Source: Symbiodinium sp. CCMP2592
Taxonomy: Eukaryota; Sar; Dinophyceae; Suessiales; Symbiodiniaceae
Direction: 5' to 3'
Assembly (NCBI GenBank): GCA_905221615.1
Contig: CAJNDT010005869.1
Location: 360,733-424,732 of the forward strand
DNA length: 64,000 nt
This document shows, in pieces, positions 1 to 37,988 of the stretch (positions are counted from its first letter, which is position 1; each line of letters begins with the position of its first letter). The notes beneath the pieces were generated by a model that was not told where the DNA came from, searched no databases, and saw nothing but the letters and a program-made list of their open reading frames with translations. The translations under genes and the position numbers were made by a program.

Positions 1-1
1 T

Positions 2-3000
2 GATCCAAGGTTTGCTGTGCTGCTTTCGCAGTGTCTTGTGGGTGATGAACGATCAGATCTCCGACAATGTTACTTGTTCGAAGATATCTTTGAGGATTTT
101 GATGATGGAACACTGTGTGCGTTGTGTTTGCGGTCAGACCGCAATTCAGAGGCTTTACCGGTTCTTCCGTCAGAAGCAGAGTACTCATTACTCTCAAACA
201 ATGACAAAGGGAAGCTTCCGACACCTCTGAGGTTTGTTGCGCCGCAGCGTTTTGTTACATCGTCTTTGGTCCAGACTCTGTCATATGTTGACAGTCTCCT
301 TCCCGGTACTGAGTTGGAAGTTCACACGACCACATCGTCTGACGCGGTCGCCTTGCGGCCGATGATTAAGAATGTGCGCGTGTTGACTCTGCCGTATCTG
401 GAGTTTGAGTACTGTAACGTCTACAGGGGGACTCAAGGGAAAACACTCCCTTTGGTTCATCGTCATCCTGATGCTGTTGTCATTTTGTGGCAGAAGGGTG
501 ATATGAATCATGTGTTTTTCGTGACGATGGCACAGTTGCTTCCTTGCCTTAAGGATATGCAATCAACGCACTGGTCCATGATAGTGTTCTGGAATGAGTC
601 ACATAACAACAATTCCAGACGCGGGCCTGATGTTGGCTTGGACTTCACGGACCAGCCAGCGCCGGCCCCGGTTGCACCGCAACCGCCAGCCACAGACGAT
701 GATGTGGACTATCCAGGATATGATGATCCACACGGTGATATGCCTGTGGACGATGAGGAAATGCCACTACAGCATCCAGAGCAGGATTTAGATGATAATC
801 CTGTTGAGTTGCATGTCGGTGGTGACCCTCCGTCACAACCTCCTGGAGGCGGTACTCATGTACCGGTACCAGGGGGAGATGATGATTCCGACCTGGATCA
901 CGATCCGGACGGTGATGGACATCCGCCAGGAGGCGGTCCTCAGGGACCGGGACCTGGTTATGGTCCGTCACCGGAAGAGCCTCCTCTTCCGATGGAGTTT
1001 CACGAGGAGTCGCCTCCTCCTGGAGGTCCTCCCGATTCTCCTGGGGCTCCGCCTCAGTTTGCGAACCCGGATCAGGTTCTTAGTCCACCGATGCCGTGGC
1101 CGGCACCACCTTCACCTATTGTTCCTGTTCCAATTCCGCCGCATCCTCACTTTCCGGTGCCACAGAGTATGCGACCGCCGTCGCCTCGCAATGTGTCTCA
1201 GACACGTGCCAGAGGCACACATCCTGAAGATGTGTCTAAGGCCAAGTCACGTACTGTTGTGGGACCTCCGGTTGTGTTGTTGCCTGGGCAGTCTGCGGGA
1301 AAGAAGGATCCCGATCCGTCGGGTGACTTTCCAGGTTTTCACGAACCTGCTTCCTCTTCTTCTGATCCGGCTCCTGTTCCTGGTTTGCCGGTGACTGAGG
1401 GGGAATTTCCTATCCAGCAAACCCCACTCCCGGAACCCACCCCGGAACCGCCGGTGCCGGAAGCTGGTGAGGATACTGATTCGGATGCTACGGTTGACTA
1501 TCGTGATGAAAGCTTGCTTGCCTTGGCTGCTGGCGACGACGACGTTTTGATTCGCCTTCCGTCGGACTTCAAGGTTCCGTCCTTTGTTCCGTTGGATGGT
1601 GATGGTTTTGCGTCGTGGTTGACTAAACAAGATAAAATCAAGGCAGGTACCCTCACGCCGGAGATGCAGCGCAAGTATGCCGCCGAAATTCGGAAGGCTA
1701 AACTTGAAGAGTTCAAGAGTTACTTGGACAATGATGCAATTCGGTTGACGGACCGTCGCAAGCTTAAAACCGATGTCAATTTTCTTACCGGACGTTGGGT
1801 CCTTACTGTGAAGGTTGACAAGAACGGTTACTTTTCCAAGTTCAAAGCCCGATGGGTTTGTCGTGGGTTTCAGGACAAGTTTGCCTGGGATCAACAAACG
1901 GACAGCCCTACGGCTACTCGGTATGGTTTCCGTTTGGTTGCGCAGTGCGCTGCCAATCACTATTGGGATCTTTTTCATTTGGATCTTAAGACCGCTTTCC
2001 TTCAGGGGGAACACTACAATCTGTCATCTCGCATGGTTGTGGTTCAGTTGCCTCCTGACATCGGTTTGCCTACCTGGATGGTTGGCCTTTGTCTCAGACC
2101 AGTCTATGGTCTGAACGATGCACCGAGAAGATGGTGGAATCGTTTGGACAAATTCCTCAGGTCTGTAGGCATGGAACCGACCAGAGCTGACCGATGCACT
2201 TATGTCGCATACGACGGCATAGAAGGCAAGAAGGGCAAGAGCCACCTTGCGGCAGGAAGCTCCTCTCAGGAGGAGGAACCTGAAGCAGGAAGCACCTCTC
2301 TTGAGGTGGAACCTGCCTACCTCAAGGAGGTTGCCCTTCATGCCATGACATGCTACGCATACGATGAAGGAAACCGTTCTTCCTCCGACCGTGCGGAGGA
2401 GAGATCCTATCTCTCATGTCCCGATATCGCTCAGTGTTTTAACACCGATACCAAGAAGATGGTTGACTATGCTTGGAGACCTGTTACTGACGATAAGCTT
2501 CTCGGATTCTTGGGCAGTGTTGCTTGTAAGAAGAGAGGTTGGTTCCCTTATGAGAACGGGCATGCTCTCGTTTCTCACAGGGCCAAGGCTCTTCGTACTC
2601 CAGCACCTGTCTATCAGGTCAAGGACTACCCTTATCGAGTTTCCATGATCCTTCGTAAAGGGACATGGTGGATTGTCGAAAGGGCTCATGACCTGAGGTT
2701 GGACAAGGGTGACAAGACCTGCTTCCTTGAAGAAGAAGCTGAGGTCCTAGTCTCTTTGTTCCTTCCAGAGAAGGCTTCATACAAGGTCGAGAGCTTATCA
2801 GAGCTCTCCCCCGAGTTGGTTGATCAGCTTCTTGAACACTTTGTTGACCCTGTGCATGGAAGTCCCAGCAAAGGTCGCAGGACAGTTGGAGTGATGAGTC
2901 TTCATGTTGATGATCTCATCATAAGTGGAACCCCTGAGTTCCTCACTTGGTTCCTTAAGAAGATCAAGGAACACTTCACTGTCGGCCATGAGGACAAGAA

Positions 3001-3979
3001 TGACCTTACGTTCACGGGACAGCGTGTTCGTTGGGTTCTTGATGCACAAGGGAAAAAGAAGTATATCTCGATCGATCAAAAGCTGTGTGTTTCAGAGCTT
3101 GAGGAGATTGTCATACCAAAGCATCTTAAGGATGCAGATGCGTGTGATAAATCTCTTCACACTTCCTATCGCTCTTTGCTTGGTAGCATCAACTGGCTTC
3201 AGTCGAGGACGCAATTTCAGGCATGTTACCAGTTCTCTCGTCTGGCATCAGCATCCGCTGCTCCGACTGTTGGTCACTGCAAGGAGTTGAACAAGTTGTG
3301 TCGACAGATACGCAGTGAGGAAGTAGAGTTGCGGGTGTGGCCAGTGAAGGGATCACCGAGGATTCTTGGAATTCCTGACGCAGCTTTCCGTAACAACAGC
3401 GACAAGTCCTCACAGAGGGCGATGACTATCTTCATCGCAGATGAAAGGGTCAAGAATCGAAGAGACACCCGAGGCTCATTGGTCTTCTTCGAATCAACCA
3501 AGATTAAGAGAACGACCCTCAGTACCACTGTCGCTGAGCTTTACGCCTTGATGAAGTGTTTTGGTACCTGTCAAATGCTTCGTGGTTTGTGGAAGGACAT
3601 TAGTGGTTTGGATGCCGAGATTCACATTCGCACCGATGCTAATAATCTCGTGTCTACCGCTTCTACTACTCACTCACCCGAACAACAGGAAACCATTCAC
3701 ATGATTCAAATGCTGAGAAAGGAAGCGTGTTCAGGTGCTATTGCTGATCTTTCTCACGTTCGAACCGAACACTGTCTTTCTGACTGTCTCACGAAACGAA
3801 GCGCTAATCCTAGAAACCTCCTGAGTTCTGTTCAAACTGGGTGGTTGAAGGAAATTGATTCACATCCTCCTTTTCGTTCCATGATTGAGCACAAGGCCTT
3901 CTTGAACGCCTGGCTCCGTAAGGAGTACGCGGTTTTGAGTGCAGTGCAACATGTCATGTTCATGCAGGAGCGTTTGTGA
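2..3979 (+). CDS. Ty1/copia-type Pol polyprotein, 3' part (RT + RNase H)
   Basis: The frame is open to the left edge, so the 5' part (gag, protease and probably integrase) lies outside the window. The first ~200 residues are unassigned. A Pro/Asp/Gly-rich linker follows (about 215-490). Then comes a copia-type reverse transcriptase (RVT_2): 'LTGRWVLTVKVD', 'FKARWVCRGFQ', 'HLDLKTAFLQGE', 'VYGLNDAPRRWWNRLD', and the active-site box 'MSLHVDDLIISG' near nt 2,900, with HVDD in place of the usual YVDD. RNase H follows, with 'LSTTVAELYALMK', 'IRTDANNL' and 'HCLSDCLTK' supplying the acidic residues. About 225 residues (nt ~2210-2885) are inserted between 'RADRCTYVAYDG' and the HVDD box, where copia RTs normally have about 20. 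The stop is TGA at 3977. The lack of frameshifts suggests a young or active copy. The family call is firm; activity is inference. Confidence 0.93.
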   Translation, partial: DPRFAVLLSQCLVGDERSDLRQCYLFEDIFEDFDDGTLCALCLRSDRNSEALPVLPSEAEYSLLSNNDKGKLPTPLRFVAPQRFVTSSLVQTLSYVDSLLPGTELEVHTTTSSDAVALRPMIKNVRVLTLPYLEFEYCNVYRGTQGKTLPLVHRHPDAVVILWQKGDMNHVFFVTMAQLLPCLKDMQSTHWSMIVFWNESHNNNSRRGPDVGLDFTDQPAPAPVAPQPPATDDDVDYPGYDDPHGDMPVDDEEMPLQHPEQDLDDNPVELHVGGDPPSQPPGGGTHVPVPGGDDDSDLDHDPDGDGHPPGGGPQGPGPGYGPSPEEPPLPMEFHEESPPPGGPPDSPGAPPQFANPDQVLSPPMPWPAPPSPIVPVPIPPHPHFPVPQSMRPPSPRNVSQTRARGTHPEDVSKAKSRTVVGPPVVLLPGQSAGKKDPDPSGDFPGFHEPASSSSDPAPVPGLPVTEGEFPIQQTPLPEPTPEPPVPEAGEDTDSDATVDYRDESLLALAAGDDDVLIRLPSDFKVPSFVPLDGDGFASWLTKQDKIKAGTLTPEMQRKYAAEIRKAKLEEFKSYLDNDAIRLTDRRKLKTDVNFLTGRWVLTVKVDKNGYFSKFKARWVCRGFQDKFAWDQQTDSPTATRYGFRLVAQCAANHYWDLFHLDLKTAFLQGEHYNLSSRMVVVQLPPDIGLPTWMVGLCLRPVYGLNDAPRRWWNRLDKFLRSVGMEPTRADRCTYVAYDGIEGKKGKSHLAAGSSSQEEEPEAGSTSLEVEPAYLKEVALHAMTCYAYDEGNRSSSDRAEERSYLSCPDIAQCFNTDTKKMVDYAWRPVTDDKLLGFLGSVACKKRGWFPYENGHALVSHRAKALRTPAPVYQVKDYPYRVSMILRKGTWWIVERAHDLRLDKGDKTCFLEEEAEVLVSLFLPEKASYKVESLSELSPELVDQLLEHFVDPVHGSPSKGRRTVGVMSLHVDDLIISGTPEFLTWFLKKIKEHFTVGHEDKNDLTFTGQRVRWVLDAQGKKKYISIDQKLCVSELEEIVIPKHLKDADACDKSLHTSYRSLLGSINWLQSRTQFQACYQFSRLASASAAPTVGHCKELNKLCRQIRSEEVELRVWPVKGSPRILGIPDAAFRNNSDKSSQRAMTIFIADERVKNRRDTRGSLVFFESTKIKRTTLSTTVAELYALMKCFGTCQMLRGLWKDISGLDAEIHIRTDANNLVSTASTTHSPEQQETIHMIQMLRKEACSGAIADLSHVRTEHCLSDCLTKRSANPRNLLSSVQTGWLKEIDSHPPFRSMIEHKAFLNAWLRKEYAVLSAVQHVMFMQERL

Positions 3980-4141
3980 GTCATGTCTGCTTCATGTGTG
4001 AGCTGTCGGAGCAATTCAATGCATGTGCTTCATGAAGAGTTGTTGGTCTCTTTTTAAATTTGTGCCTGCATTGCTCAAATCAGCTGGTTCAAAACTCAAG
4101 TGAGAAAGTAGCCCACAACTTCCTCTTCTTCTGTTACCAGC
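3980..4141 (+). promoter_or_regulatory. Pol-ORF2 spacer ending in a strong 3' splice acceptor
   Basis: This 162-nt spacer separates the Pol stop from the ORF2 start. Its last ~25 nt (4116-4140) are a near-continuous pyrimidine tract ending in ACCAG, one base before the ORF2 ATG at 4142. That is a textbook 3' splice site. It could serve cis-splicing of a subgenomic RNA, as in env-type genes, or dinoflagellate spliced-leader trans-splicing. A 17-nt word at 4052-4068 recurs exactly at 9952-9968, after the last ORF. Function is inferred; the tract and the repeat are seen directly. Confidence 0.6.
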
Positions 4142-6166
4142 ATGGCTGCGGCAGGACCCTCGATGGACACTGGACGCTCCTCTCATGAGGAGGCACCATT
4201 CCAGGTCTACTGGACACCGACAACGGGATGCAACTTCAAGATTGACGTCCGCACTGGTGTCCCCGACCTGTCCTTGTACCAACAGAGCGCGTCCTGGGCA
4301 AACCGTCGTGTACTCCGAACAGTTGGAGATGGCGACGGTAGTGCCAGCTATCCTACAAGGGATCGTCGAGCCTATCCTGCGAGTGCTCCGGTGGCCTCCC
4401 TCAGGATCATCCCAGAAGGTGTTCCACGGTTTTTCCGTCAGCAGGACACCACGGCGTACTTCCCTCAGGGGGAGATGGCCGCGGTGAACATTCTGGAAGG
4501 ACAGTTGGCCTTTCTGTCACACGTCCTGCTGTACGAGGAAGCTCACCCTGGGACCCATGTGTTGCAGCGGCACCTCACGTGGAAGTTCGACTTCCTCCGG
4601 TGCTTTCTTGGATGTCTTACCGGCGACGAGCTCACCGAGCTCGATCGTGAAATCTTCAACATTCACCAGATGCGCCACAATCACGGTGGATGGGCGGTGA
4701 AGTCATCCAAACAGCTGTCATCATTGACCAGGCACGACACGAGGGTCACGCCGGGTCGATACATGGAGATCCCGTTGGAGACGATGATGAAGCACCCCAT
4801 CAGGCCTTTCGAGTGGGAGCCCAAGAAGTTCTTCGCCTTCTTGATGGCGAACTCGAAGGGTCGCTTCAACATCTGGGTGGCCCCAGTGGCTCTGCAGTTC
4901 GAGCGGTTCTTTGACTTCGACTTCTATATCGGGGTCTCCGCCGTCCAGGGTCACTCACGGATACCCGAGCGGGTCTCTGATGTTGCTCTCGGGGAAAGGC
5001 TCACCTTGGAGCGATGCCGCCAGCTTGGAACGATTTTCCACGCCTCGGATAACAGCAACTACGAGAGCATCCGGGAAAACGGCTTAAAGCTGGAGGCGAC
5101 GAAGGCGGCGTGGCAGCGGCACAGGAAGGCCATCCACCTCGTTTATGCGGGTGGAGTGGTTTCTCCTGGGCCTGGGACCGTCATTAAGTACGGTACCTAC
5201 GTCTTCTACGCCAAGCTCGATTACGAGTGCTACCTGAGTCACGGCCACAATCTGTTTCTTACAGACAATGGCGTGGTGCTCTCGTACCAGGACATTCCGG
5301 CGATGTATCTCACACATCACTACCGTCCTCCTCACGAGCAAGATCCGGGTGGCATTCGCCACGAGAGGAAGCAGCAAAGCGCAGGGGTAGGCTCTTCTCA
5401 GGAAGAGGGAACCTCAGCGTCTGCTTCCGCATCTGCTTCCGGAGGCCCTCCACAGGGAGGGGTACCGGGTAGCAGCTCGGATCCAATGCCTTCGAAGCCA
5501 GCTCCCAAGAAGCGGCCAAAGACATCTCAGGATGCAGGCCAAGCGTCACCGGGAAGCTTCTCTCAGGAGAAGGTACCCACATTGGACGCGGCAGCTCTTC
5601 AGAAGCTTATTCGTGACAATGAGCTTAAGGAAGAGCGGGAGCGGCAAGCCACAGCCTCCGAAGGAGACACCAAGTATGCGTATCAGGCTGGGGACACCGT
5701 CCACGGCAAGATTGATGCGCATAAGTCCCAGCAGCAGGAGGAGCTCAACGAGGTTCTCCGCAAGGCCCGGACGAATCCATGGCATCTCTTCGCTCACGGC
5801 AAGTTGCACATGGTGGACTCCTCTGGCCAGCCGATGCTTAGCACCTATGGCGATGCCCTCGTTCAGGTCACCCCCTGGCACACTTTGACTACTTCTATGA
5901 GAGAGTCTTTGGGTGGTGAATACGATTGGGCATCGTGGTTGCAGCATCCTCTTTCGGGGTACTCCCTGCACTTCTTCCTCAAGGCCTTCGAGATGGGGAA
6001 GTTGCAGGGGAACTACCTCGTGGAGCTGGACAAGAAACCGAAGGTTTACTCCAACGGTTACACGTCACCTTGGATGAACTTTAAGCGTCATCCTGGCGGT
6101 CTTGCCCAGATGCTGGAACGATGTCTCCGTTGCCGCGTCGAACGAATTCAGGCCCAATTTGGGTAA
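4142..6166 (+). CDS. ORF2: protein with Tpt1/KptA-like RNA 2'-phosphotransferase domain
   Basis: A 674-residue ORF starting at an ATG right after a splice-acceptor-like tract. Residues ~185-395 match the Tpt1/KptA order of motifs: 'SKQLSSLTRHD' (like LSKxLSxxLRH; Arg197-His198), 'MANSKGRFNIW' (like NDKxRF), 'SAVQGHS' (like RAxQGHS; 269-272), 'FHAS' (like YHGT), 'RHRKAIHLV' (like RxHVHLS; about 326-333) and 'DNGVVLSYQDIPAMYL' (like SxNGVWLxxVPxxYL; 376 on). Known family members remove a splice-junction 2'-phosphate from RNA by way of an ADP-ribosylated intermediate using NAD+. The last Arg of the catalytic tetrad could not be placed, so activity is uncertain. The C-terminal third is low-complexity Ser/Gln/Glu/Lys with hairpin-coding 'SSQEE' stretches, then a unique tail. 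It overlaps ORF3 by 89 nt. A captured cellular gene is an alternative to element-encoded cargo. Confidence 0.8.
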   Translation: MAAAGPSMDTGRSSHEEAPFQVYWTPTTGCNFKIDVRTGVPDLSLYQQSASWANRRVLRTVGDGDGSASYPTRDRRAYPASAPVASLRIIPEGVPRFFRQQDTTAYFPQGEMAAVNILEGQLAFLSHVLLYEEAHPGTHVLQRHLTWKFDFLRCFLGCLTGDELTELDREIFNIHQMRHNHGGWAVKSSKQLSSLTRHDTRVTPGRYMEIPLETMMKHPIRPFEWEPKKFFAFLMANSKGRFNIWVAPVALQFERFFDFDFYIGVSAVQGHSRIPERVSDVALGERLTLERCRQLGTIFHASDNSNYESIRENGLKLEATKAAWQRHRKAIHLVYAGGVVSPGPGTVIKYGTYVFYAKLDYECYLSHGHNLFLTDNGVVLSYQDIPAMYLTHHYRPPHEQDPGGIRHERKQQSAGVGSSQEEGTSASASASASGGPPQGGVPGSSSDPMPSKPAPKKRPKTSQDAGQASPGSFSQEKVPTLDAAALQKLIRDNELKEERERQATASEGDTKYAYQAGDTVHGKIDAHKSQQQEELNEVLRKARTNPWHLFAHGKLHMVDSSGQPMLSTYGDALVQVTPWHTLTTSMRESLGGEYDWASWLQHPLSGYSLHFFLKAFEMGKLQGNYLVELDKKPKVYSNGYTSPWMNFKRHPGGLAQMLERCLRCRVERIQAQFG

Positions 6167-9100
6167 CATTGGATTCGATCGCCCTCGGGACAATGACTCT
6201 CGTGCAAAGATGCCAAGGACAGAGGATCCCGACTACTCTCGCAAGCTCGCCGCACACAAGGCTTTCCTCAGGGAAAGGTATGTGTATGAAGAGGTTGGCT
6301 ATGTGCGAGAGGATTTCCAGATGCTCGTCCGCGTCATCAATGAGGCTTATGGAGTGGACTTCTTCTCCTACATCCAGCGCCACGCCGGTGATCTGGAGGT
6401 TCGCCGTAAATACACGGTGCGAACCCCTGAGGGCTATTGTCTCTATGACAGTACCCTGAAGCAGCCGTTCAACGGCAGCTACCTCCTGGCGGTTCTGGAG
6501 AAAGTCTTCACGGAGTCTGACCAGCGCGATTTCAAGTCGGCTTTCGCCCGCAAGGCAAAAGCTGATTTAGTGGCGTACGAAGACTTGAAGGCGAAGAAGG
6601 AGTCTGAGCTGAATGAGCTCCTCACTCGACCATACGACGACATTATGATCGAGGAGTTCATCGAGCGACTCCCATGTCCACAGATCGAGGAGATCGAGGA
6701 GCCTCCCGCGGCTACTCAGATGGATACCTCCGAACCGTCGTCTGGATCCACGGACTTGCCACAGGGCAAGAAGGTTGATCCGGTTAAGACCGAGCCGACC
6801 GATGTGCCAATGGAGACTGAAGCTCCAGAAAGCTCTCCACAGGGAGAGGCATCTGGGGTTACTGTCGAGCCAATGGAGACGGACGCTCCGGAAAGCTCTC
6901 CACATGGGGAGGCATCTGGGGTGGATGTTCCACAACAGAAGACCGAAGCCACGGAAAGCTCTCCACAGGGAGAGGCATCCGAGGTGAAGGTCGAACCTGA
7001 TGCGCACATGGGTCAGGAAGGAGGTAAGTCCGAGAACGTCGAAATGGCTGAGGAAGGCTCACCACAGGGTGAGGAATCCATGCCAGACATTTCTCCCGAG
7101 AAGGATGATGAAAGTGAACTTCACGATCAAGGCATCTGGGGGAAATGCAAGACCGTTCCGGATCCTGAGTACTACCAGGCCGCGAAGGATGCAGAGGACC
7201 AGAATGAGAACGCGTTCGACAAGATGGGCAAAGCAAAGGAAAAGATCGAGCTCGTCGATCTCGAAGAGTTCAAACATTTCCTTACGCAGCTCACCGAAAT
7301 CGAACGACAAAGCCCTATGCGGATGCTCTGCAAGCAGCTGCATGGATATGGCTATTCAGGCTTGTATCATACAGGACTTCGTGATCCTGATTACGAGCCC
7401 GTTCTCGCCTACAAGGTGCAGCATATGAGTTGGAGGGTAAATGTTCCAAACCACAAGGGACAGAAATACTCTCTCTCTATGGTGGATCTATTCGACCAAC
7501 TCAACAAGATGGATCCCATCTATGAGCGTCGTCCCGACAAGAAGAACGTTGCTTTTCGTTCTGGGGACGTTCGTAGCACCTTGGACGACAAGCTCATGGG
7601 CAAGGCCTCTGACATCCGAGAATCAGCACTGGAAGTCATGGAAGCACTTCTTGATAAGCTGAAGTCCCTGGATGCAAGCGGCAATCCGGCAACTCGAGAA
7701 GAACTTTTGAATGCTATGATTCACTACTTCTTGAGCGCCGGAGTCGATGAAGAGGAGATCGGGGACCTCTCTCTTGAGAAGACGCCGAATCCTTATATTC
7801 ATCGTTTTGGTCTGGCAGAGGACTCCAATGTCCCTATCTTCACCAGCAAGACCAAGTATGCCGCGCTCATCCTCAATCTCGGCAACATGAGCAGGGGAAG
7901 AAAGCGTACCGCTCCTCGCTCCGTTGCTGATCACATTGACTGGGACGATGCTACACCATCTAAAGGAGCCTTGATAAAATCGATTGCACAGTCGAAGACG
8001 CATTTGTTCATGCTCTGCGAAGCGGCTCAGATCGATGACTCCGAAGAGGCCTTCCTCAAGTCACGCGGTTGGCAATTCCTTCGTAACGAGTCCAAGGACC
8101 TGATGGTGGGAAGTCGTACAAATGGTGTCGGATCTTCGATCACACGTCTTGCCGGCTCCACTCTCAGTGGATATGCCCACGAGTCCCTTCCAATAACCTA
8201 TATGGTCGCGGAAATCGTGTATGGCATGACGTTACCGACCGGTCTCCAGGGCAGTCGTGGTGATGTTCCAGATGAGTCACTGACCAAGGTCTTGGAGCGA
8301 GCTGGATCCGACCGGCTGAGAGTTTGTGTCTTCCACCTCCACAACGACGCGGCGGCAGACAAGGTGGCGTTGGCTCATGAAGTGTTGGGCAACATGTTCA
8401 TCGACTGCCTGCACTACCAAGTCGACCTCATCGGTGGCGACGCCAACATGGCCCTCTACCGGGCCACCGGCAGAAAGCAGGAGTCGATGGATATTCGTGG
8501 CGGGATGTACCAAAGCCTTCTCGACTACTTCTTGGAGGCATGGTCAGAAAGCCCAAAGTGCCCACACCTCTGTTCGCCTCGTGCGAGACATGTGTCAGCA
8601 AACGCCATGTGGCTTCTGAAACAGTATGAGGACACGCTGGGAATGCCATACAAGGAAGCTAAGCAACCAGACTGGAATACTTTTCCTGGTTTGGATCCTG
8701 TTATGGCTACAGTCATGGAATGGGGACACAGCATGTCGGACGATCAATGGGCGGAGTTTCCGTCTTCAAAGAATGAGTTCGACATCCATGTCTCTGAGTG
8801 GCTGTTAAACTCCACCAGCGCCGCGTACCTTCTCAACGATCGGGACTATGACGCTCACACTCCGCTCCTCATCGAGGTTCACGCGAACCAGTACTCTGGA
8901 GGCAGGATGAGAGCGCTCAACCGCAATCCCGACACCATGAAGGAAGCCGCGGACAGAAGAAAAGAGAGACAGAAGCTGAACAAGGCGCGTGGTTCTGGTT
9001 CTACTGGTCCTGCAGCCGCACCACAGGGAGCAAGCTCTTCTCAGGAAGAGGCAGCTTCTGGTGCTAAAGCTTCTGGTTCTCAACGTCCTCCAGAACCCGC

Positions 9101-9233
9101 ACAACCTCCTGGTGGCAAAGAAGGCGGCAAAGGAGGCAAGTCCTCCAAAGGAAAAGGGAAGGACGCCGACAAGGGCAAGTCCAAAGGCAAATCCAAGGAC
9201 AAGTCCAAGGGCAAGAACAAGGGGAAGAACTGA
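6078..9233 (+). CDS. ORF3: protein with EEP (endonuclease/exonuclease/phosphatase)-like domain
   Basis: The frame opens at 6078 and overlaps the end of ORF2 in the +1 frame. The first in-frame ATG is near 6210, so it could be reached by +1 frameshifting, by splicing, or from that ATG. Numbering from nt 6102, residues ~225-330 hold several copies of an acidic 'ESSPQGEASGV' motif encoded by hairpin repeats. Residues ~630-925 resemble an EEP nuclease fold: 'LFMLCEAAQ' (Glu640), 'RVCVFHLHNDAAADKVALAHEVL', 'LIGGDANMALYR' (Asp780, Asn782) and 'YDAHTPLLIEV' (Asp917, His919). These match the metal Glu, the GDxN box and the terminal DH box in order and spacing. The C-terminus is a basic Lys/Gly/Ser tail. 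APE-type EEP nucleases are known in non-LTR elements but are not expected beside a copia Pol. The fold call rests on motifs only. Confidence 0.72.
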   Translation, partial: TLSVILAVLPRCWNDVSVAASNEFRPNLGNIGFDRPRDNDSRAKMPRTEDPDYSRKLAAHKAFLRERYVYEEVGYVREDFQMLVRVINEAYGVDFFSYIQRHAGDLEVRRKYTVRTPEGYCLYDSTLKQPFNGSYLLAVLEKVFTESDQRDFKSAFARKAKADLVAYEDLKAKKESELNELLTRPYDDIMIEEFIERLPCPQIEEIEEPPAATQMDTSEPSSGSTDLPQGKKVDPVKTEPTDVPMETEAPESSPQGEASGVTVEPMETDAPESSPHGEASGVDVPQQKTEATESSPQGEASEVKVEPDAHMGQEGGKSENVEMAEEGSPQGEESMPDISPEKDDESELHDQGIWGKCKTVPDPEYYQAAKDAEDQNENAFDKMGKAKEKIELVDLEEFKHFLTQLTEIERQSPMRMLCKQLHGYGYSGLYHTGLRDPDYEPVLAYKVQHMSWRVNVPNHKGQKYSLSMVDLFDQLNKMDPIYERRPDKKNVAFRSGDVRSTLDDKLMGKASDIRESALEVMEALLDKLKSLDASGNPATREELLNAMIHYFLSAGVDEEEIGDLSLEKTPNPYIHRFGLAEDSNVPIFTSKTKYAALILNLGNMSRGRKRTAPRSVADHIDWDDATPSKGALIKSIAQSKTHLFMLCEAAQIDDSEEAFLKSRGWQFLRNESKDLMVGSRTNGVGSSITRLAGSTLSGYAHESLPITYMVAEIVYGMTLPTGLQGSRGDVPDESLTKVLERAGSDRLRVCVFHLHNDAAADKVALAHEVLGNMFIDCLHYQVDLIGGDANMALYRATGRKQESMDIRGGMYQSLLDYFLEAWSESPKCPHLCSPRARHVSANAMWLLKQYEDTLGMPYKEAKQPDWNTFPGLDPVMATVMEWGHSMSDDQWAEFPSSKNEFDIHVSEWLLNSTSAAYLLNDRDYDAHTPLLIEVHANQYSGGRMRALNRNPDTMKEAADRRKERQKLNKARGSGSTGPAAAPQGASSSQEEAASGAKASGSQRPPEPAQPPGGKEGGKGGKSSKGKGKDADKGKSKGKSKDKSKGKNKGKN

Positions 9234-9479
9234 CTAGGTTCCGATTCTTCGGACGTGGATATGGACAATGGTTCTGAAGAAGTTCCTTTGGAACAAGTTG
9301 GAGACGTTGCTCCAGATCCACAGATATCGCTACCTAGATCCCCTGCTGATCCCCGCGGTTACGACCCTGTTCGTCATCAGCCGGTGATGCCGATTCACAC
9401 TGTCGACATCTACCGTTGGCATGGTGAGGATCATTGGCGTGATAGAACCTGGGATGCAGACCTAGAGTTCGTCGACTGA
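9234..9479 (+). CDS. Possible readthrough extension of ORF3 (or separate acidic small ORF)
   Basis: This stretch is in the same frame as ORF3 and directly follows its TGA, which sits in the sequence TGACTAG. UGA-CUA is the best-known leaky-stop context. The 81 codons run without interruption to a TGA at 9477 and encode an acidic peptide with 'DMDNGSEEVPLEQ', 'PADPRGYDP' and 'DIYRWHGEDHWRDR'. An internal ATG at 9261 could also start a 72-residue protein. No homology is recognised. Readthrough is inference; the context and the open frame are seen directly. Confidence 0.45.
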   Translation, partial: LGSDSSDVDMDNGSEEVPLEQVGDVAPDPQISLPRSPADPRGYDPVRHQPVMPIHTVDIYRWHGEDHWRDRTWDADLEFVD

Positions 9480-9970
9480 ACTGGCTGTGTGTTTCACGGA
9501 ATGCTTCTTTCATAAGAAGGTATCCACTTTGAGCATTCGCCATTTCATAGGGAGATGCTTTTCTCAGGAAAAGGTACTTCCTAAAGAACTCTTTCTCAAA
9601 GGAAGATACTTATCTCAGGATAAGATACTTCTAATGCCCTTATATATTTGCCTTGCCGCAAGATGTCATGCTGGCATCAAGTAAAGCTAAGCTTTACACC
9701 TTTATGTTACAGTATGCTTTCCGCCTGGAGAGGGAACTGAAACACAAGTGGGCAACTTTCAAGCAAAAGTTTTCAGTTGAAGATCCGTTTGCGTTTCGTG
9801 CGTGTTCTGCTCTTTTCATTGAAGCTGTCTTCAGGCTAGAGATGTATAGATTCTCTTCAAGTCGCAGATGTAGCTCAATACTCCGCTAATTCGACCAAGA
9901 GCAATAACAGGCTTGTAGATTGCCGACTCCACGGCCATGCAGCTCTACGTGTTTTAAATTTGTGCCTGGT
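9480..9970 (+). repeat. 3' non-coding part of the copia-type element, with micro-hairpins
   Basis: No credible gene. Three more hairpins of the same family lie at 9504-9519 (CTTCTT arm), 9558-9573 (CTTTTC arm) and 9609-9624 (CTTATC arm), each spaced by related GGTAY/GATAC flanks. The block ends with the 17-nt word at 9952-9968 shared with the Pol-ORF2 spacer. It probably contains the 3' LTR or 3' UTR, but the 5' LTR is outside the window, so no LTR boundary can be drawn. Confidence 0.5.
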
Positions 9971-10155
9971 TGAAACACTGAATGTTACACATCCAGGTGC
10001 CTGTCTGTTTCACGTATCACTTGCATGTATCCATGCCTGTTGCTCAAGGTTCTAGTGCAGTGGACTACAGCTGTGCGCCTGTAGCAAAAGAGACACCTGA
10101 GTGCCTGTGTTCCTGTACGCCTAGCGAGGGGATACACGTCCAGGTTACATCTCAG

Positions 10156-10186
<31 letters not shown>

Positions 10187-12860
10187 GAGAACGCACAGCG
10201 CACAACCATATATAGAGAGACTCTCGGGTCATGTTTGGGTTCTGCTAGGTCTTACGAAGCCCCGAAACCCGTTCCAAACACCTCAGCACTTGGATCCTCG
10301 ACCTCCGAACCGTCCCCCCAACTCCCTCCTAAACTTATCAATTAGAATAGGGTCCTTGAAACGGGATTATACGAGGTAAGTTTAGGGTTCTATCAGGGAT
10401 CCATATTTGGGTCGTAATACCTCCTAAACCTTGTGAGCCGACGCCGCAAGGACTGCTGGTCAAGCTGCCGACGTCGGAGAGCAACACGGAACGTGGCAGC
10501 TCCAAAAAAGGTCCGACCCAAGGCCTCGGATTTGGGGTCGAGGCTTCCTATCCTACGTTTTTTCAGGGTTTCCGAGTATGATGTTCTTAAGTGCATAGGG
10601 TTCCTTAGTATGATGCTCTTAAAATTACATAGGTCCTAGGCTACCTAGGGTCCAGGACATTTAAAGTCCTACGAGCTAAGTTTCGCACGCTCCGTCGCCG
10701 AGGGCTTCGTCAAGAGTTCCTTGAAACCACGAGGCCTTGCCATGAGTGCCCGGAAACCCGTGGAGCCTAAATTCTAAACTCTAAGACCTGAACCCCTAAA
10801 CCCCTAAACCTTCAACCCCTAAACCCCTTCGAAATGCCCTGCTTCGGTTGATGATATAATCCTGCACGACCCATAATAAGGAATATACCATAATTCCCAC
10901 TTGTTCCTTATTATGGGTCATGCAGGATTTTTATCATTAACAGTCCGAACGGTGTCTTCTACATGCGTTGCTTTGGGCTCAACTTCGAGGCCTTTCAAAG
11001 GTTTAGGTGTTTTAGTGTTTGGGGTTTAGGGGTTTAGGGTTTAGGGGTGTAGGGTTTAGGGGTACAGGGTTTAGGGTTTAGAGTTTAGGGTTTAAAGTTC
11101 GGGGGTTAAGGTTTTAGGAACCCCCAAAATCTGCACCCACACTGGCGCGCAATTAAAACCCCAAGCCCCAAGCCCAGAATCCGAGATCCTGAGCCTGAAA
11201 CCCAAAGCCCGAACCCGAGAATCGGTCCAGAGCCAACCAGGACCCTCCTTTTGCCCTCGAATAGGGGTAAAGGGTCCCAAATAGTGGGCATTTAGGGTCT
11301 AATGGAGGGTGGATGGAGGGTCTAGGAAGTGAAACTTTCTACTGCCTAAGCTCGACACCCGCTATGGTTCGGGGGTTGAGGATTAAAACCCTCCTCCACT
11401 CTATAAACCTCAATCCGGCAGGGTGACGGAAAAGCCTGAATCATTACCACGGTGTTCTTTCGGGTTCCGAGGGTAATTATGGCATAATAAATAGCGAAAC
11501 CCTTGGCCAATGATAAAGGACCCTATATAAGCCAGGTAATCTTGTAAAGAGGTGGTGGTCTTCGCCTTTAACAACCCTTACAGGAACTCTAGTACGAACC
11601 ATCACGGAAGGTAAACCCCAAACCCTATGCCGTAAGCCCTAAACCGTAAGCCCTGAACCCAAACCCCTTGAGTCTTAACCCGAGTCCCAACAGCCAAGCC
11701 CTAAGCCCATTTCTAAACCTCAAACCCTGAGCCCTAACTAAACCCTAAACCCAAAGCCCTGCTCTCTAAACTACCCTGAACCCTAAACCCTAAGCTGCGA
11801 TGGCCTTTAAGCCATGGATCTTTACGCTGGCTTGCTTCTGCCTCGGCTTCAACTGCTGCTTCTGAGTGGCGAAAAGGAGGGCTTTCAGTTGAGGGGTCAT
11901 GGTTTCGGGTTTAGGGGTTAATCAGGGTTGAGGGAGTTAGGGGTTAGGGTTGAGGAGTTGGGGGTTTAAGTTTTCAGTGCTAATTCGGCAGATTACAAGC
12001 TAGAGTTTGGGGATTTGTTGATTGGAGGGCTCTTCAGTGGTATATGAAAGGGTGTTGTAAGGATTTTCTGACGGTTTTCTAAGGGGTCCATAGTCCTTTA
12101 ATCTATGGATATTCATAGGAGTCAATGTCGGGGCCCTTCGTGGGTTTGGAGATTACGGTGCACGGGGTTGTGGGAGTACTTGTTCTGGCAAGGTTCAGAA
12201 GTCTAATCTCGAAACCTTAAAACGCCGAAATCGTTCAAAAGCCTAAACGCTTTCGAAACTCTCCTAATAAGCCCTGAAGCACTTGCGTATGAAGCTCATG
12301 TCTCGATTGGGTCGAGCCTCGGCAAAAGAGTGCCACGCCAGAGACTGCACCAACGCCGAAGAAGGACAGGACAGCCTTCAACTCAAGACTTAAACCTTAA
12401 ACCCCTAGTTTAAGGGAGTGGGCACCTGGAAAAACTTATGAAAGCTCTCCGGGGGATAAATTATTAATTCTATTGTTAACGGGTTCCTCATTATGTTTAA
12501 TGCAGTATAATATACCCCCCAAGAAACAACCTATATAGATCCCTTGTAGAAACCTTAAGGGAACCCTTTAAAGATATTCCTTTTGAGGTCTGCTGGTTGG
12601 TCTCGATGGGGTGGAGCCTCGGCAAGCGAGGCCCGCACCAGAGACGACAGGCACCGAAGCCGAAAAAACAAAAGACAGGGTTTAGGGTTCAGGGTTTAGG
12701 GTTTAGGGTAAAGGACATGTAGTTTTACTCAAAGCTTAAACCATGAACCCTAAGTGTTAGGGTGTGTGGATTGAGGTTTAGGCAAGATCATATAAGAGTT
12801 TAGGGTTGAGATTAGGGTCTTGCACTCGACTTTGAACCCTGAGCCCTGAACAGCTAAACT
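9971..12860. repeat. Gene-poor DNA rich in degenerate TTTAGGG/CCCTAAA motifs
   Basis: Contains an uninterrupted run of 30 G at 10155-10184 and a dense TTTAGGGG block at about 11015-11110. CCCTAAA-type blocks lie at 10770-10830 and 11620-11800, with a short TTTAGGG run at 12677-12712. Motifs switch strand repeatedly and vary by one base, unlike a terminal telomere. Short ORFs here are artefacts of the repeat. No gene seen. Confidence 0.75.
10849..10939. repeat. Fold-back (MITE-like) element
   Basis: Two ~35-nt arms (10849-10883 and 10904-10939) are near-perfect reverse complements around a 20-nt centre. Both arms carry ATCCTGCAYGACCCATAATA. A few mismatches and one small indel show it is not a recent artefact. 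No target-site duplication could be assigned with confidence. Confidence 0.75.
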
Positions 12861-30838: not shown

Positions 30839-30925
30839 CCTTTCCCCTTAATATTAAAGGGTCGGGGCCCCCCCCCCCCCTTCGCCCTAAATAAAAACTC
30901 GAAAATGTTTTTATAATTAGGGGGG
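30839..30925. repeat. Junction sequence between TACATA array and island, with poly-C
   Basis: Begins CCTTTCCCCTTAAT, holds 13 C at 30868-30880, and ends TGTTTTTATAATTAGGGG at about 30906. A related sequence with the same two words about 65 nt apart is at 62552-62635, at the other edge of the island. The copy after the N gap starts within the poly-C. Confidence 0.6.
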
Positions 30926-31586
30926 GGTTGTTATCTCAATTCCTAGAAACACAGGTTCTACAAGTAATTAAATGATGAAAATGATGACGATGAAAATGAT
31001 GATGACGATTACGGTGATGCTTGTTATGATGAAGATGGCGGTAGTGGTGGTGATGGTAATGATGACGATGATCATATGATGATGATGAAGAACATGATGA
31101 TGATGTTGTTGTTGATGATAGCAATGCTTCATGGTTGCACAAGTGCAGAAGAGCACATGTGGTGAATGCCAGAAGCTTGGAAATAACATGATAATTAATT
31201 AAATATGATAGGAACTGATTAATTAATTAATGATGTTCCAAGATTCTGGCATTCGCTGCAAGTGCTTTGCTTCTGAAAGCTGTCAACAATCTGCCCGCTC
31301 CGCCACAGACAGGCAGCCTCAAGAAGAGGCCTTTGGGCCTCGCTTCAACAGGCTGTCACACACACACACACACTCACACTCACACTCACACTCAGACAGA
31401 CCAACCGGAGCACTCAAACACAGACACCACTCACACACACTCACTGAGGAGGCAGACAGACAGCTGGAAGTGCTTCTTCGCTTCGCCGCCATGGGCGGCT
31501 GAGTGCCGCCATGGGCGGCGAGGAAGCCCACGAGAAGGCGGGATCTTTTCTAAGACGGGCGTTAGTAATCCTTCAGACACAAAAAT

Positions 31587-31654
31587 GACGGGCAGGGGAA
31601 TCGAACCTCGGCACCATCCATTGAGAGTGTAGCACTACCCCCTCGGCTATCCTG
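31587..31654 (-). tRNA. tRNA-like sequence (Pol III box A and B), probably pseudo-tRNA
   Basis: On the minus strand it has a box-A-like TAGCCGAGGGGGTAGTGC with a 4-bp TAGC/GCTA D-stem and a box-B-like GAGGTTCGATTCCCC. The anticodon stem is poorly formed, so no isotype is given. Its 3' end CCCGTCATTTTTG is shared with other tRNA-like copies in the island, suggesting a tRNA-derived SINE. Confidence 0.45.
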
Positions 31655-31758
31655 TAGCATATCGAAGTAGTGCAATTCTGACCCCTAGGAGATTATCACG
31701 ACCACGATTCGCGGGCGCAAGGCCGAATGCAGTAATTACTGATAGCAAAGAACAGAGG

Positions 31759-32834
31759 ATTGTAGTACAAGCTTAGTACTGGAAGAGCCTCGTCTCGGAT
31801 GCTGTCGGGATGATGTCGGTGCTAGAAGTGTCTCCTGTCCGATGCTGGCTGGATGGTGCTCAATTCTAGTACAAGCTTAGTACTGGAAGAGCCTCGTCTC
31901 GGATGCTGTCGGCATGATGTCGGTGCTAGAAGTGTCTCCTGTCCGATGCTGGCTGGATGGTGCTCAATTGTAGTACAAGCTTAGTACTGGAAGAGCCTCG
32001 TCTCGGATGCTGTCGGGATGATGTCGGTGCTAGAAGTGTCCCCTGTCCGATGCTGGCTGGATGGTGCTCAATTGTAGTACAAGCTTAGTACTGGAAGAGC
32101 CTCGTCTCGGATGCTGTCGGGATGATGTCGGTGCTAGAAGTGTCTCCTGTCCGATGCTGGGTGGATGGTGCTCAATTGTAGTACAAGCTTAGTACTGGAA
32201 GAGCCTCGTCTCGGATGCTGTCGGGATGATGTCGGTGCTAGAAGTGTCTCCTGTCCGATGCTGGCTGGATGGTGCTCAATTCTAGTACAAGCTTAGTACT
32301 GGAAGAGCCTCGTCTCGGATGCTGTCGGGATGATGTCGGTGCTAGAAGTGTCTCCTGTCCGATGCTGGCTGGATGGTGCTCAATTGTCGTACAAGCTTAG
32401 TACTGGAAGAGCCTCGTCTCGGATGCTGTCGGGATGATGTCGGTGCTAGAAGTGTCTCCTGTCCGATGCTGGCTGGATGGTGCTCAATTGTACTACAAGC
32501 TTAGTACTGGAAGAGCCTCGTCTCGGATGCTGTCGGGATGATGTCGGTGCTAGAAGTGTCTCCTGTCCGATGCTGGCTGGATGGTGCTCAATTGTAGTAC
32601 AAGCTTAGTACTGGAAGAGCCTCGTCTCGTATGCTGTCGGGATGATGTCGGTGCTAGAAGTGTCTCCTGTCCGATGCTGGCTGGATGGTGCTCAATTGTA
32701 GTACAAGCTTAGTACTGGAAGAGCCTCGTCTCGGATGCTGTCGGCATGATGTTGGTGCTAGAAGTGTCTCCTGTCCGATGCTGGCTGGATGGTGCTCAAT
32801 TGTAGTACAAGCTTAGTACTGGAAGAGCCTCGTT
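31759..32834 (+). repeat. 104-bp tandem satellite, about 10 units, copy 1
   Basis: Units begin at about 31762 and recur every 104 bp. Each contains GTAGTACAAGCTTAGTACTG, then GAAGAGCCTCGTCTCGG, ATGATGTCGGTGCTAGAAG, and GATGCTGGCTGGATGGTGCT. Units differ by only a few substitutions. The last unit is truncated next to the gene upstream region. Confidence 0.95.
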
Positions 32835-32885
32835 TGGATGGTGCTGGCATGTTTCTTCTGATTGTTTTTTTTTCCCAAACGTGCA

Positions 32886-32945
32886 GGCCAGGCTGCGAGC
32901 CGCTTTGGAGAATGCTTTGGCCGAGCTTGACAAGGCGCAGGGGTG
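32886..32945 (+). CDS. Possible upstream exon of the DDE-Ulp1 gene
   Basis: A T-rich tract ending CAAACGTGCAG precedes an open stretch encoding 'ARLRAALENALAELDKAQG', a probable coiled coil. A short intron of about 40-50 nt would link it to the frame that encodes 'DDEREAKRRKTAKTVEVVDL' just before 33040. The exact donor is ambiguous (GG or GT start). It is conserved in copy 2 at +10645. Confidence 0.35.
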
Positions 32946-33039
32946 CTGATGAATGAATTGACCGAATTGCTCTAAACATCAGGACGACGAGAGGGAAGCC
33001 AAAAGAAGGAAGACAGCCAAGACAGTAGAGGTAGTTGAC

Positions 33040-34497
33040 TTGAGCAAGGAAGAACCACAGGCAGTGGTTTGCAGGCAGAGCAGCCAAGACAGCCTAGACA
33101 GCAGCCAGACAGCTAGAGGAGTCAAGAGGCAGGCGAGCTTTCACACACCTTCGCCGAAGAAGCGTCTGTTCAGTCCTGACAGCAAGGGTGGAGACAGCCA
33201 GAGCCCAGGCAGCCAGAGCCCGGGCAGCCAGAGCCCAGACAGCAACCCTGTGCAAAAGAGAAAGATAGAACAGCTCAAAAAGACCTTAGGCCCAGGCAGT
33301 CCAGTCTACTACAGGCTAGACTACCTTTGGGGCAAGGCAGCAGAGGCAGAGGCCAAGCCCGGCCTTTCGCCAGACACAGCTAGTGACAGACAGAAACAGC
33401 AGCAAGCTGAGAACATGCAAAACCTGCAGCAGAAAGCCAGCCAAGCAGTAGAAAAGCTCGAACTGGAGCCAGCTCTTGGAGTTCTTAAAAAGAGACGGGG
33501 AGGCAGACCGCTAGGCAGTAAGCAGAAGACGAAAGCGGTGCCGCATCTTCGCAAGAAACGATGTGATGTGACAGCCAGAGGCAAGCTTTCCATGATGGAA
33601 GAGCTAGACAGAGCAGCTGTAACTCACAAAAGCAAAACTGCAGCCAGGCAGCATGTCATGAGGCAGTATGGTGTGAGCAATTCTTTTTGCTTCAACCTGC
33701 AAAAAGACTATCACAGACAGAAAGTCACCAACTTTCTCGCCAGCACGGGGCGAGGACACAGTGCCAGACAGGCAGGCAGCCATTTGGGTCTCGTGCACCT
33801 CGTCAGCAAGTCAAATGGCCGAAGACTGCCTGACCCAGGCAAAGTGCTGGGTAGGCCAGACTTTCTCCTGCCAGTCTGGTCTGAGACCCGTGCTTGGGCC
33901 TTGAATGAGGAAGCCAGCCAGCACGTCCTGACGAACGAAGACGTGCTGATGGACTTCCAAGAAAGGCTCGACAAAGCCATTGCAGTCAGGCAGGCAGAAA
34001 AGGAAAAGGGTCTTCTTGACCAGACAGGTGAGAAGGAGCTGGCAGCCATGACGCAAAAGAAAGCCACGCTAGCCAGCAAGCCAAAGCAGAGGAGCAAGTA
34101 CCAGATCCTGCTCCTGGCAAAGTGCGGTCTTCGAAACAGATCCTGCCAACAGACAGCCAACCTGAGCAAGGAGGATGAGAAAGCCAGGCTAGACTTGTCC
34201 TGGCGACTCTGGGACTTGCTTTTGGAACAGGCAGCCAGCAAGACACCACAGCCAGACTTGCCTGTAGCAAGCCCAGAGCAGTGGACGACAAAGCGAGCAG
34301 AGACAGCCATCACCATGTCAGACCAAGTACCTGCTTGGCTCAAGCCAACGCCAGGGAAGGCGTTGACATCGGTGGTGCGCTTGAAGCTAGCCAGCGAGCA
34401 AAGCAAGGCCAGGCGAGAGAACAGGAAAGCCAGACAAACACAGCCAAAGGCCAAACCTGAGGCCAAAGCCAAGGCCGCACCTTGGCGGTTTTGTTGG
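33040..34497 (+). CDS. DDE-Ulp1 gene, N-terminal part (DNA-binding region and first catalytic Asp), copy 1
   Basis: The frame is open from about 32988 to a stop at 34666, with no early ATG, so an upstream exon is likely. It starts with a Ser/Gln/Pro-rich region, then an AT-hook-like 'GGRPLGSKQKTK' and a probable helix-turn-helix ('HKSKTAARQHVMRQYGVSNS'). A middle region carries 'GRPDFLLPVWSE'. Near the end is 'AITMSDQVPAWLKP' (Asp codon at 34321), which I read as the first DDE catalytic Asp, by analogy to pogo/CENP-B-type transposases. The coding sequence is crowded with CAGACAG/CAGCCAG words. The frame past 34497 becomes telomere-like ('FGFRVSLNPKPK'), consistent with intron. I propose the protein continues in the exon at 34602. 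The DDE assignment is by motif and spacing only. Confidence 0.65.
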
Positions 34498-34601
34498 GTG
34501 GATTCGAAGTGGACTTTCGGGTTTAGGGTTTCCTTAAACCCCAAACCCAAAAGCCAAAGCCTAAACATTCATGCACCTTCATGCTTTCGAAACCAACCGA
34601 G
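34498..34601 (+). other. Proposed 104-nt GT-AG intron in DDE-Ulp1 gene, copy 1
   Basis: The donor after GTTGG and an acceptor ending CCGAG give a phase-0 join between the two long ORFs that otherwise overlap in different frames. The interval holds TTTAGGG and CCTTAAACCCC motifs, like the other introns in this window. The same sites occur in copy 2 (45143-45246). No transcript evidence. Confidence 0.5.
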
Positions 34602-37073: not shown

Positions 37074-37127
37074 ATAATGAATTACATATCGAGTTTTACA
37101 TTAATTAATTACAGTAATTACTTCTTC

Positions 37128-37357
37128 GTACAGGATGTGCCTCGCTTCGCATGCTGGCTGGATTGTGCCACATCGTAGTACAAGCTTAGTACTGGATGTG
37201 CCTCGCTTCGCATGCTGGCTGGATTGTGCCACATCGTAGTACAAGCTTGGTACTGGATGTGCCTCGCTTCGCATGCTGGCTGGATTGTGCCAAATCGTAG
37301 TACAAGCTTAGTACTGGATGTGCCTCGCTTCGCATGCTGGCTGGATTGTGCCAAATA
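37128..37357 (+). repeat. 61-bp satellite, about 4 units
   Basis: The unit contains GTAGTACAAGCTTAGTACTG, GATGTGCCTCGCTTCGCATG and CTGGCTGGATTGTGCCAAAT. The first and last blocks are shared with the 104-bp satellite. Because 61 is not a multiple of 3, all minus-strand frames read through and give spurious ORFs. Confidence 0.95.
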
Positions 37358-37785: not shown

Positions 37786-37914
37786 AAATCAGCAATGAGC
37801 TTGTCTGCAGCACTCTCGACGCAGAGTGCCCAGGGCTTTTGGTCACCCAAAGTCTCGGTGCTCAAAGCTTTTGGTCACACAAAGTCTCGATTCCAGGCGG
37901 GGAAAGAGCTTAAA

Positions 37915-37988
37915 TGACGAGTCCGGGGATTGAACCACGGACCTAGTCCAATGCGAGTCGTCCGCCCACCCCTTAGGCTATCAGAGGA
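37915..37988 (-). tRNA. tRNA-like sequence, probably pseudo-tRNA
   Basis: The minus strand has box-A-like GATAGCCTAAGGGGTGGGC and box-B-like GTGGTTCAATCCCCGG, followed by CTCGTCATTT. It shares the 3' end pattern with 31587-31654 and 54340-54419. No credible anticodon arm. Confidence 0.45.

Follow-up and report, generated by a model that had tools for sequence, protein, structure and literature searches.

A young copia-type retrotransposon of Symbiodinium with a Tpt1-derived gene and a family of sense-strand RNA hairpins

Retrotransposons of the Ty1/copia group, which include the abundant Copia elements of Symbiodinium, are bounded by long terminal repeats (LTRs) of the TG..CA type and encode a single gag-pol frame with a reverse transcriptase of the RVT_2 family. 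An element with these features was found at the left end of a 64,000-nucleotide stretch of the Symbiodinium sp. CCMP2592 genome (assembly GCA_905221615.1, contig CAJNDT010005869.1, positions 360,733 to 424,732 of the forward strand; hereafter the window). Unlike the known members of the group, the window element is 15 kb long, carries a second gene after Pol, includes about 31 dispersed hairpins, and has no purine-rich tract before its 3' LTR.

Three described systems are close to parts of this element. Ty1 belongs to the same copia group, and binding of its Gag is favoured by RNA structure close to the 5' end; the Ty1 packaging signal is outlined as a 5' region that is loosely defined and contains a pseudoknot, and not as a hairpin repeated through the genome (PMC8396678). 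Dispersed packaging signals have been described for RNA viruses, where many stem-loops occur in one genomic RNA (PMC6281560). The hairpins of the window element, as candidate signals, are likewise repeated stem-loops that share a loop motif, but they are found in an LTR retrotransposon, and all follow one design, in which the outer helix and the inner helix both covary. Lastly, dinoflagellate retrotransposons are reported to carry a captured DNA methyltransferase (DNMT), the Copia elements in that account being without DNMT (PMC5890265). The window element likewise includes a captured enzyme, but its cargo is a Tpt1-derived domain with an EEP-like half, its host is an LTR copia element, and the word hairpin is absent from the main text on the DNMT elements. 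A literature search, mostly by title, found no publication on a Tpt1-carrying or hairpin-bearing LTR retrotransposon of Symbiodinium or dinoflagellates.

The copia-type element and its reading frames

The remainder of the element was located in the 10 kb directly left of the window (L009). A direct repeat (187 nt, 99.5% identity) was trimmed to two TG..CA LTRs of 184 nt without a single difference, giving a full length of 14,955 bp from LTR to LTR. As the LTRs are identical, the insertion is recent, and the block is a young, full-length copia-type LTR retrotransposon. An earlier reading of the window from its letters alone (the sequence-only reading) had proposed locating the 5' LTR to the left of the window and its match near 9.5-10 kb; the LTRs found lie at L009:5200-5383 and at window 9971-10154. 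The main parts of the element, including its open reading frames (ORFs), are as follows.

L009:5200-5383, 5' LTR, 184 nt, TG..CA
1..3979, + strand, 3' portion of gag-pol, a 2797-aa ORF in a single frame from L009:5586, with a copia-type reverse transcriptase (RVT_2)
4142..6166, + strand, ORF2, with an N-terminal region, a Tpt1-derived domain (about residues 180-400), and a linker
6102..9233, + strand, ORF3, the 3' part of the ORF2 gene, with EEP-like boxes in its C-terminal half and a basic K/G-rich tail
9234..9970, + strand, 3' untranslated region (UTR), with four hairpins
9971..10154, + strand, 3' LTR of the TG..CA type, 184 nt, same sequence as the 5' LTR
4052..4068 and 9952..9968, + strand, exact 17-nt repeat, the second copy abutting the 3' LTR and the pair bracketing the ORF2-ORF3 cassette

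The RVT_2 match in gag-pol was clear (Pfam, 3.3e-16, 60.1 bits), and relatives of Gag-Pol were found among Symbiodinium proteins. Wherever an organism was given, the relatives of all three ORFs were Symbiodinium proteins (the S. natans lineage was looked up). The order described by the sequence-only reading, a copia Pol followed on the same strand by a Tpt1-like ORF and an overlapping ORF with EEP-like boxes, was confirmed. Its proposal of a Tpt1-derived domain as the cargo of a copia-type LTR element was also supported, by the RVT_2 match, the LTRs, and the Pfam match and fold of the Tpt1 domain. It had missed the hairpin family, as well as the presence of Tpt1 and EEP together in elements of the long interspersed nuclear element (LINE) type in the same genome.

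Stem pairing is maintained while the hairpin sequence varies

A repeat search revealed a 32-nt family with differing stems. In each member, an outer helix of 5 bp and an inner helix of 6 bp are separated by a 3x3 internal loop that contains purine-purine mismatches, and the terminal loop is [U/A]CA[G/U] in 26 of the 28 clear copies. Together with three weaker ones, about 31 copies were found, all on the sense strand; they occur in the 5' leader, in every ORF, and in the 3' UTR. Four successive copies lie in the leader (in L009); it is in the 5' leader that retroviral packaging signals are located. The copies within the window are listed below.

842..873, + strand, hairpin in gag-pol
926..957, + strand, hairpin in gag-pol
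2252..2283, + strand, hairpin in gag-pol
2285..2316, + strand, hairpin in gag-pol, variant loop TCTT
4169..4200, + strand, hairpin in ORF2
4305..4336, + strand, hairpin in ORF2, other codon phase
4451..4482, + strand, hairpin in ORF2
5384..5415, + strand, hairpin in ORF2
5438..5469, + strand, hairpin in ORF2
5549..5580, + strand, hairpin in ORF2
6254..6285, + strand, hairpin in ORF3, other codon phase
6747..6778, + strand, hairpin in ORF3
6825..6856, + strand, hairpin in ORF3, first of three in a 63-nt tandem repeat
6888..6919, + strand, hairpin in ORF3, second of the three
6951..6982, + strand, hairpin in ORF3, third of the three
7050..7081, + strand, hairpin in ORF3
7758..7789, + strand, weak hairpin (17.9 bits, E 0.026)
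9027..9058, + strand, hairpin in ORF3
9496..9527, + strand, hairpin in the 3' UTR
9550..9581, + strand, hairpin in the 3' UTR
9601..9632, + strand, hairpin in the 3' UTR
9709..9740, + strand, weaker hairpin in the 3' UTR (23.3 bits, E 0.00043)

Both strands of the window and L009 were scanned for six-pair hairpins with a TCAG or ACAG loop and at most one G-U pair. The + strand of the element contained 21, of which 18 had perfect stems; apart from these, one was found elsewhere (16459, with a G-U pair) and two on the - strand, one per LTR and also with G-U pairs. In 200 first-order Markov sequences, such hairpins numbered 0.175 on average and never more than 2, compared to the 21 observed. When all loops were counted, 46 hairpins were observed, and the Markov sequences averaged 16.7 and reached at most 28. 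The set of 28 clear copies was drawn from these 46, with 26 selected by rule (a [T/A]CA[G/T] loop) and two having variant loops (ACTT and TCTT), both of which were picked with the outer pairing in view. The other 18 were excluded, including two doubtful ones (window -954 and 9717).

Pairing in the outer helix was compared with permutations of the copies. The 21 TCAG/ACAG copies had been chosen without regard to the outer helix; in these, 93 of 105 outer pairs were formed, while none of 2000 permutations exceeded 69. The counts were 113 of 130 for the 26 copies (permutation maximum 86), 123 of 140 for the 28 copies (maximum 92), and 114 of 130 when two of the three tandem copies were left out (maximum 86). 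Two-sided changes were observed at all five outer pairs in each of the 21-, 26-, and 28-copy sets. Over both helices of the 28 copies, 94.5% of the cells were paired, compared to 65.6% after shuffling, and the covariation score was 0.802 against a shuffled mean of 0.205, with none of 500 shuffles as high. Sliding the helices by one column lowered the pairing to 52.6 or 57.5%. Hence, the stem pairing is maintained while the hairpin sequence varies. In the internal loop, the outermost columns (6-27) were A.A in 24 copies and G.G in four, and the innermost columns (8-25) were G.G in 22, A.A in five, and another combination in one; the purine mismatches swap together, in an isosteric-looking manner.

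A covariance model built from the 28 copies was used to search 203,000 bases on both strands. Up to an E value of 5, 31 of its 32 matches were inside the element and on the + strand, comprising the 28 training copies and three new ones (window 7758 and 9709, and L009:9865). The 188 kb searched outside the element provided the single remaining match, with an E value of 4.7. Within the three ORFs, 300 synonymous codon shuffles produced a mean of 1.56 and a maximum of 6 hairpins against the 20 observed, in a null that moves codons ORF-wide and does not hold local composition. All 20 in-ORF hairpins had at least three of four outer pairs. When folded in 216-nt contexts, 22 of the 28 hairpins had a probability of at least 0.8. 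The hairpin family has the strongest statistics in the element. An Rfam search of window positions 1-12000 gave six matches up to an E value of 1, all far below the gathering scores. Past the 3' LTR, an inverted repeat at 10858-10929 has 26-nt arms that are 96% complementary, and four sub-threshold Rfam microRNA families matched it.

Relatives of the ORFs were compared as proteins, through the peptides that the hairpins encode. The relatives of ORF2 and ORF3 contained 102 hairpin-peptide sites with distinct context in 59 proteins, while block-shuffled versions contained 24 sites over five rounds. Residues 3/5 were S/E in 27 sites, P/G in 61, the wobble combination S/G in nine, and the mismatch P/E in five. 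Residues 2/6 were S/E in 96, F/K in five, the wobble F/E in one, and the mismatch S/K in none. The residue pairs predicted from the stem thus predominate, with the provisos that the sites are inherited and not independent events, and that the search expression presets the residues permitted. The loop residue, again known from the proteins only, varied by group, being Gln or His in the window-like relatives and mostly Ser or Phe in those like P0029; both groups also have some Pro and other residues.

The Tpt1-derived gene, its relatives, and other features

ORF2 and ORF3 are the 5' and 3' parts of one gene, which is a single ORF in relatives; in the window, the reading frame shifts between them at about 6110-6125. 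The ORF2-ORF3 pairing recurs in protein relatives, and in P0059, a gene model of Symbiodinium necroappetens, a sequence resembling the integrase region of Pol is joined, by eye, to Tpt1-like and ORF3-like pieces. The protein relatives and P0059 agree with the order Pol-Tpt1-ORF3.

The ORF2 domain had a clear match to the Tpt1 fold, and its Pfam score for Tpt1 was 26.7 bits (cut-off 26). Scores in the relatives were 35.7 bits for P0029, 44.5 for P0053, and only 23.6 for P0028. The NCBIfam model for Tpt1 scored 14.2 bits on ORF2 against a cut-off of 231, a phmmer search of ORF2 against the Protein Data Bank (PDB) recovered no Tpt1, and the A3 profile found nothing among the PDB sequences despite the clear fold match. 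The catalytic tetrad of Tpt1 is Arg-His-Arg-Arg, and replacement of the second tetrad Arg by Ala in another Tpt1 slowed step 2 by 210-fold, as given in PMC6333775. In ORF2, the first Arg, the His, and the last Arg were aligned, while the second Arg, present in TRPT1, was replaced by Ser. Of the 59 relatives, 30 covered this site, and it was Ser in 25, Gly in five, and Arg in none. In sequence and fold, the domain resembles the Tpt1/KptA RNA 2'-phosphotransferases; unlike these enzymes, it has the Ser substitution, a long extra N-terminal region and insertions, and a place within a retroelement protein. It is classed, from these residues, as Tpt1-derived and not as a working Tpt1. With Ser in place of Arg, binding or ADP-ribosylation of RNA is a more probable activity of the domain than full 2'-phosphate removal.

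In ORF3, the EEP-like boxes LCEA, GGDANM, and D-A/S-H were recognized by eye. The usual EEP box is S-D-H, whereas ORF3 has one residue between the Asp and the His. No match to Pfam Exo_endo_phos was found in the whole of ORF3 or in its C-terminal half, and two NCBIfam matches (E 0.012 and 0.56), far below their cut-offs, were judged to be chance. The same judgement was made of a phmmer match to the prolyl-tRNA synthetase 1nj8 in the PDB (E 0.001), which covers only 48 residues. An hhalign comparison with the EEPs of the LINE-type elements in this genome gave a best probability of 3.6%, over a 46-column stretch at GGDxN, the rest being chance alignments. An EEP fold of ORF3 is weakly supported. 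Of the two folds expected by the sequence-only reading, that of Tpt1 was recovered for ORF2, while the low-confidence model of ORF3 gave no meaningful Foldseek rows. Its further suggestion of an RNA-end-processing module was not demonstrated, given the Ser in the tetrad and the weak support for an EEP fold.

The genome (1.10 Gb, 5383 contigs) was searched for PF01885, with 150 of 1550 candidates scored and all counts being lower bounds, and at least 152 Tpt1 matches were found. A 665-aa ORF with Tpt1 motifs was present in five loci (L010-L014, with Pfam run on L010 only) and adjoins an RVT_1 ORF in L011. This ORF accounts for a 134-bit Tpt1 family, and the identification of that family with the window element was rejected. 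In L010, the 665-aa ORF (4892-6886) also had a sub-threshold PARP catalytic match (21 bits, cut-off 26.7). Near a member of this family, an ORF at L012:3-2216 contains a ubiquitin carboxyl-terminal hydrolase domain (1.6e-8, above the cut-off) and a BED-type zinc finger. The contig of L010 and L011 has three Tpt1 matches spaced about 10.1 kb apart, which suggests tandem copies of the element with this ORF.

Four other loci (L018-L021) look like one LINE-type family. All four contain Tpt1, at about 153 bits. EEP passed its cut-off in three of them (L018, L020, and L021) and fell short of it in L019. Of the two loci examined for RVT_1, L019 had a match over the cut-off and L018 a sub-threshold one. 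Both Tpt1 and EEP were in one ORF in L020 (4679-9181) and L021 (1263-5867). Since LINE-type elements of the same genome have both, the combination is not peculiar to the copia element, and the use of Tpt1 by retroelements in this genome looks recurrent. The idea that the hairpins are common to all Tpt1 elements was rejected, as none was found in any of 13 loci (L010-L022, 9-10 kb each).

Further details concern the replication signals and borders of the window element. Three nt past the 5' LTR, in the position of a primer-binding site, begins TGGTAGCGGAGC, a candidate site with a likeness to that for the initiator-Met tRNA. Ahead of the 3' LTR, no purine-rich tract was seen by eye; the position is occupied by TTTTAAATTTGTGCCTG, which recurs at 4052. 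The resulting 17-nt repeat is possibly a central (second plus-strand) priming site or a capture scar. Immediately 5' of the ORF2 ATG (about 4115-4141), there is a pyrimidine-rich stretch and CAG plus one base, resembling a splice acceptor, at which the ORF2 mRNA may be trans-spliced. The element is flanked by G runs (GGGGGG at the 5' side and poly-G at the 3' side), hence the length of a target site duplication could not be set, and the flanks contain degenerate TTTAGGG-like repeats.

Elsewhere in the window, a tandem duplication of 10.5 kb (30872-41400 and 41501-51991) is 98.7% identical between its copies, with a 100-base N gap between them, and could be an assembly duplicate. Each copy includes two ORFs (542 and 830 aa) and a predicted tRNA-Leu(taa), and the 830-aa ORF of the first copy had a weak Ulp1-protease match below the cut-off. 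A tandem array at 59395-61686 has a period of about 61 bp, with over 93% identity between the listed shifted copies.

Possible roles of the hairpins

With a confidence that falls a little short of even, we read the locus as a young copia-type element with a Tpt1-EEP gene in which the roughly 31 sense-strand hairpins act as RNA identity or packaging signals, the function of the hairpins being what we infer. An element protein, either Gag or the Tpt1-EEP protein through its basic tail, would bind the terminal loop together with the internal loop, and the bound protein would coat the genomic RNA cooperatively, such that only the RNA of this element is condensed and packaged. The Tpt1-derived domain may then act on the tagged RNA or on its ends. 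As the copies span the whole RNA, with four in the leader, the signal would act by counting or by coating and not as a single switch. A more specific version, which we regard as possible but doubtful, holds that the genomic RNA carries a self-identity code, in which about 31 hairpins of like structure and diverse sequence are read by an RNA-binding protein of the element, families are kept apart by coevolution of loop and reader, and the Tpt1 domain, impaired in step 2, may ADP-ribosylate or grip the RNA.

Several observations weigh against a role of the hairpins in identity or packaging. At the DNA level, the hairpins and the three-ORF order come from one element copy. The four leader hairpins had probabilities of about 0 in their 216-nt contexts, and two others had 0.47 and 0.07. 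The 207-nt leader (L009:5384-5590; -100.9 kcal/mol, z -5.9) prefers a different, very stable structure, which pairs the hairpin copies with each other and folds far better than shuffles. Among 80 Gag-Pol relatives, the peptide pattern was weaker: of 38 sites, residues 3/5 were S/E in 12, P/G in 16, S/G in two, and the mismatch P/E in eight, and residues 2/6 were S/E in 24, F/K in five, F/E in two, and the mismatch S/K in seven. The L009 half of gag-pol had no Pfam match, and Gag and the integrase therefore rest on relatives and by-eye motifs; for the integrase, the relative P0074 (44% identity) has a sub-threshold rve match at 1062-1151, ahead of RVT_2 at 2111. The 63-nt tandem duplication accounts for three hairpin copies, so not all copies are independent. 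Finally, 18 of the 20 in-ORF hairpins share one codon phase and encode mostly S-S/F-S/P-Q/H-E/G-E/K, which indicates that some protein-level or duplication effect is present.

The shared codon phase and the tandem copies, as well as the linker-like stretches in which most copies lie by eye, would also be expected if the hairpins were a by-product of a repeated S-x-S/P-Q-E/G-E peptide in disordered linkers, with selection or duplication at the protein level and codons that are complementary incidentally. Such an origin is very improbable, since synonymous shuffling abolishes the hairpins, the outer helix covaries as well although it encodes varied residues, the codon phase differs in two of the 20 in-ORF copies, and eight copies are outside the ORFs (four in the leader and four in the 3' UTR, that at 9709 included). 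Slightly more credit, though still little, is due to a tiny mobile or gene-conversion-spread DNA repeat of the hairpin-insertion type, devoid of function, which would explain why the copies are numerous and uniform in design and for which the tandem copies show local duplication. The spread of a fixed repeat would give alike stems or, after decay, mismatches, whereas the helices differ between copies yet pair within each; moreover, all 31 copies have one orientation, and a single weak match occurred in the 188 kb outside the element.

Two further explanations are each unlikely but deserve more weight. The hairpins may be selected RNA structures that serve another step, such as translation or nuclear export of the 15-kb unspliced RNA, dimerisation, control of splicing or polyadenylation, or the escape from or triggering of RNA silencing. 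The structural evidence (Markov null, covariation, codon shuffles, and outer helix) serves this explanation equally, dimerisation or a switch would require pairing between copies such as is predicted in the leader, and copies are also present in the 3' UTR. Against it, a signal for one step would have no need to recur in every ORF, and no result ties the hairpins to one particular step. We give somewhat less credence to the view that the Tpt1-EEP gene is a working RNA-repair module, removing 2'-phosphates or repairing cut RNA that blocks the reverse transcriptase, with the hairpins unrelated to it. The Tpt1 fold, the aligned Arg-His and last Arg of the tetrad, the company of Tpt1 and EEP in LINE-type elements, and the occurrence of KptA in a few RNA-virus polyproteins, as noted in PMC9503650, are in its favour. 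The second tetrad Arg is nevertheless Ser, none of the 30 covering relatives has Arg there, the Ala substitution at that residue in another Tpt1 had its effect on step 2 (PMC6333775), and no RNA-ligase family was found among the Pfam matches of the element.

Should the hairpins prove to be packaging or identity signals, a kind of signal that has been proposed for RNA viruses would be apparent in a retrotransposon from the sequence itself, with visible covariation, and a single element sequence would supply some 28 natural variants for a binding code. Selective packaging would then become directly testable in the Ty1/copia group, where the signal of Ty1 is outlined as loosely defined (PMC8396678). 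The presence of Tpt1 in both copia and LINE-type elements suggests that dinoflagellate retroelements have repeatedly made use of an RNA-repair enzyme, in parallel to the capture of DNA methyltransferases described for such elements in PMC5890265.

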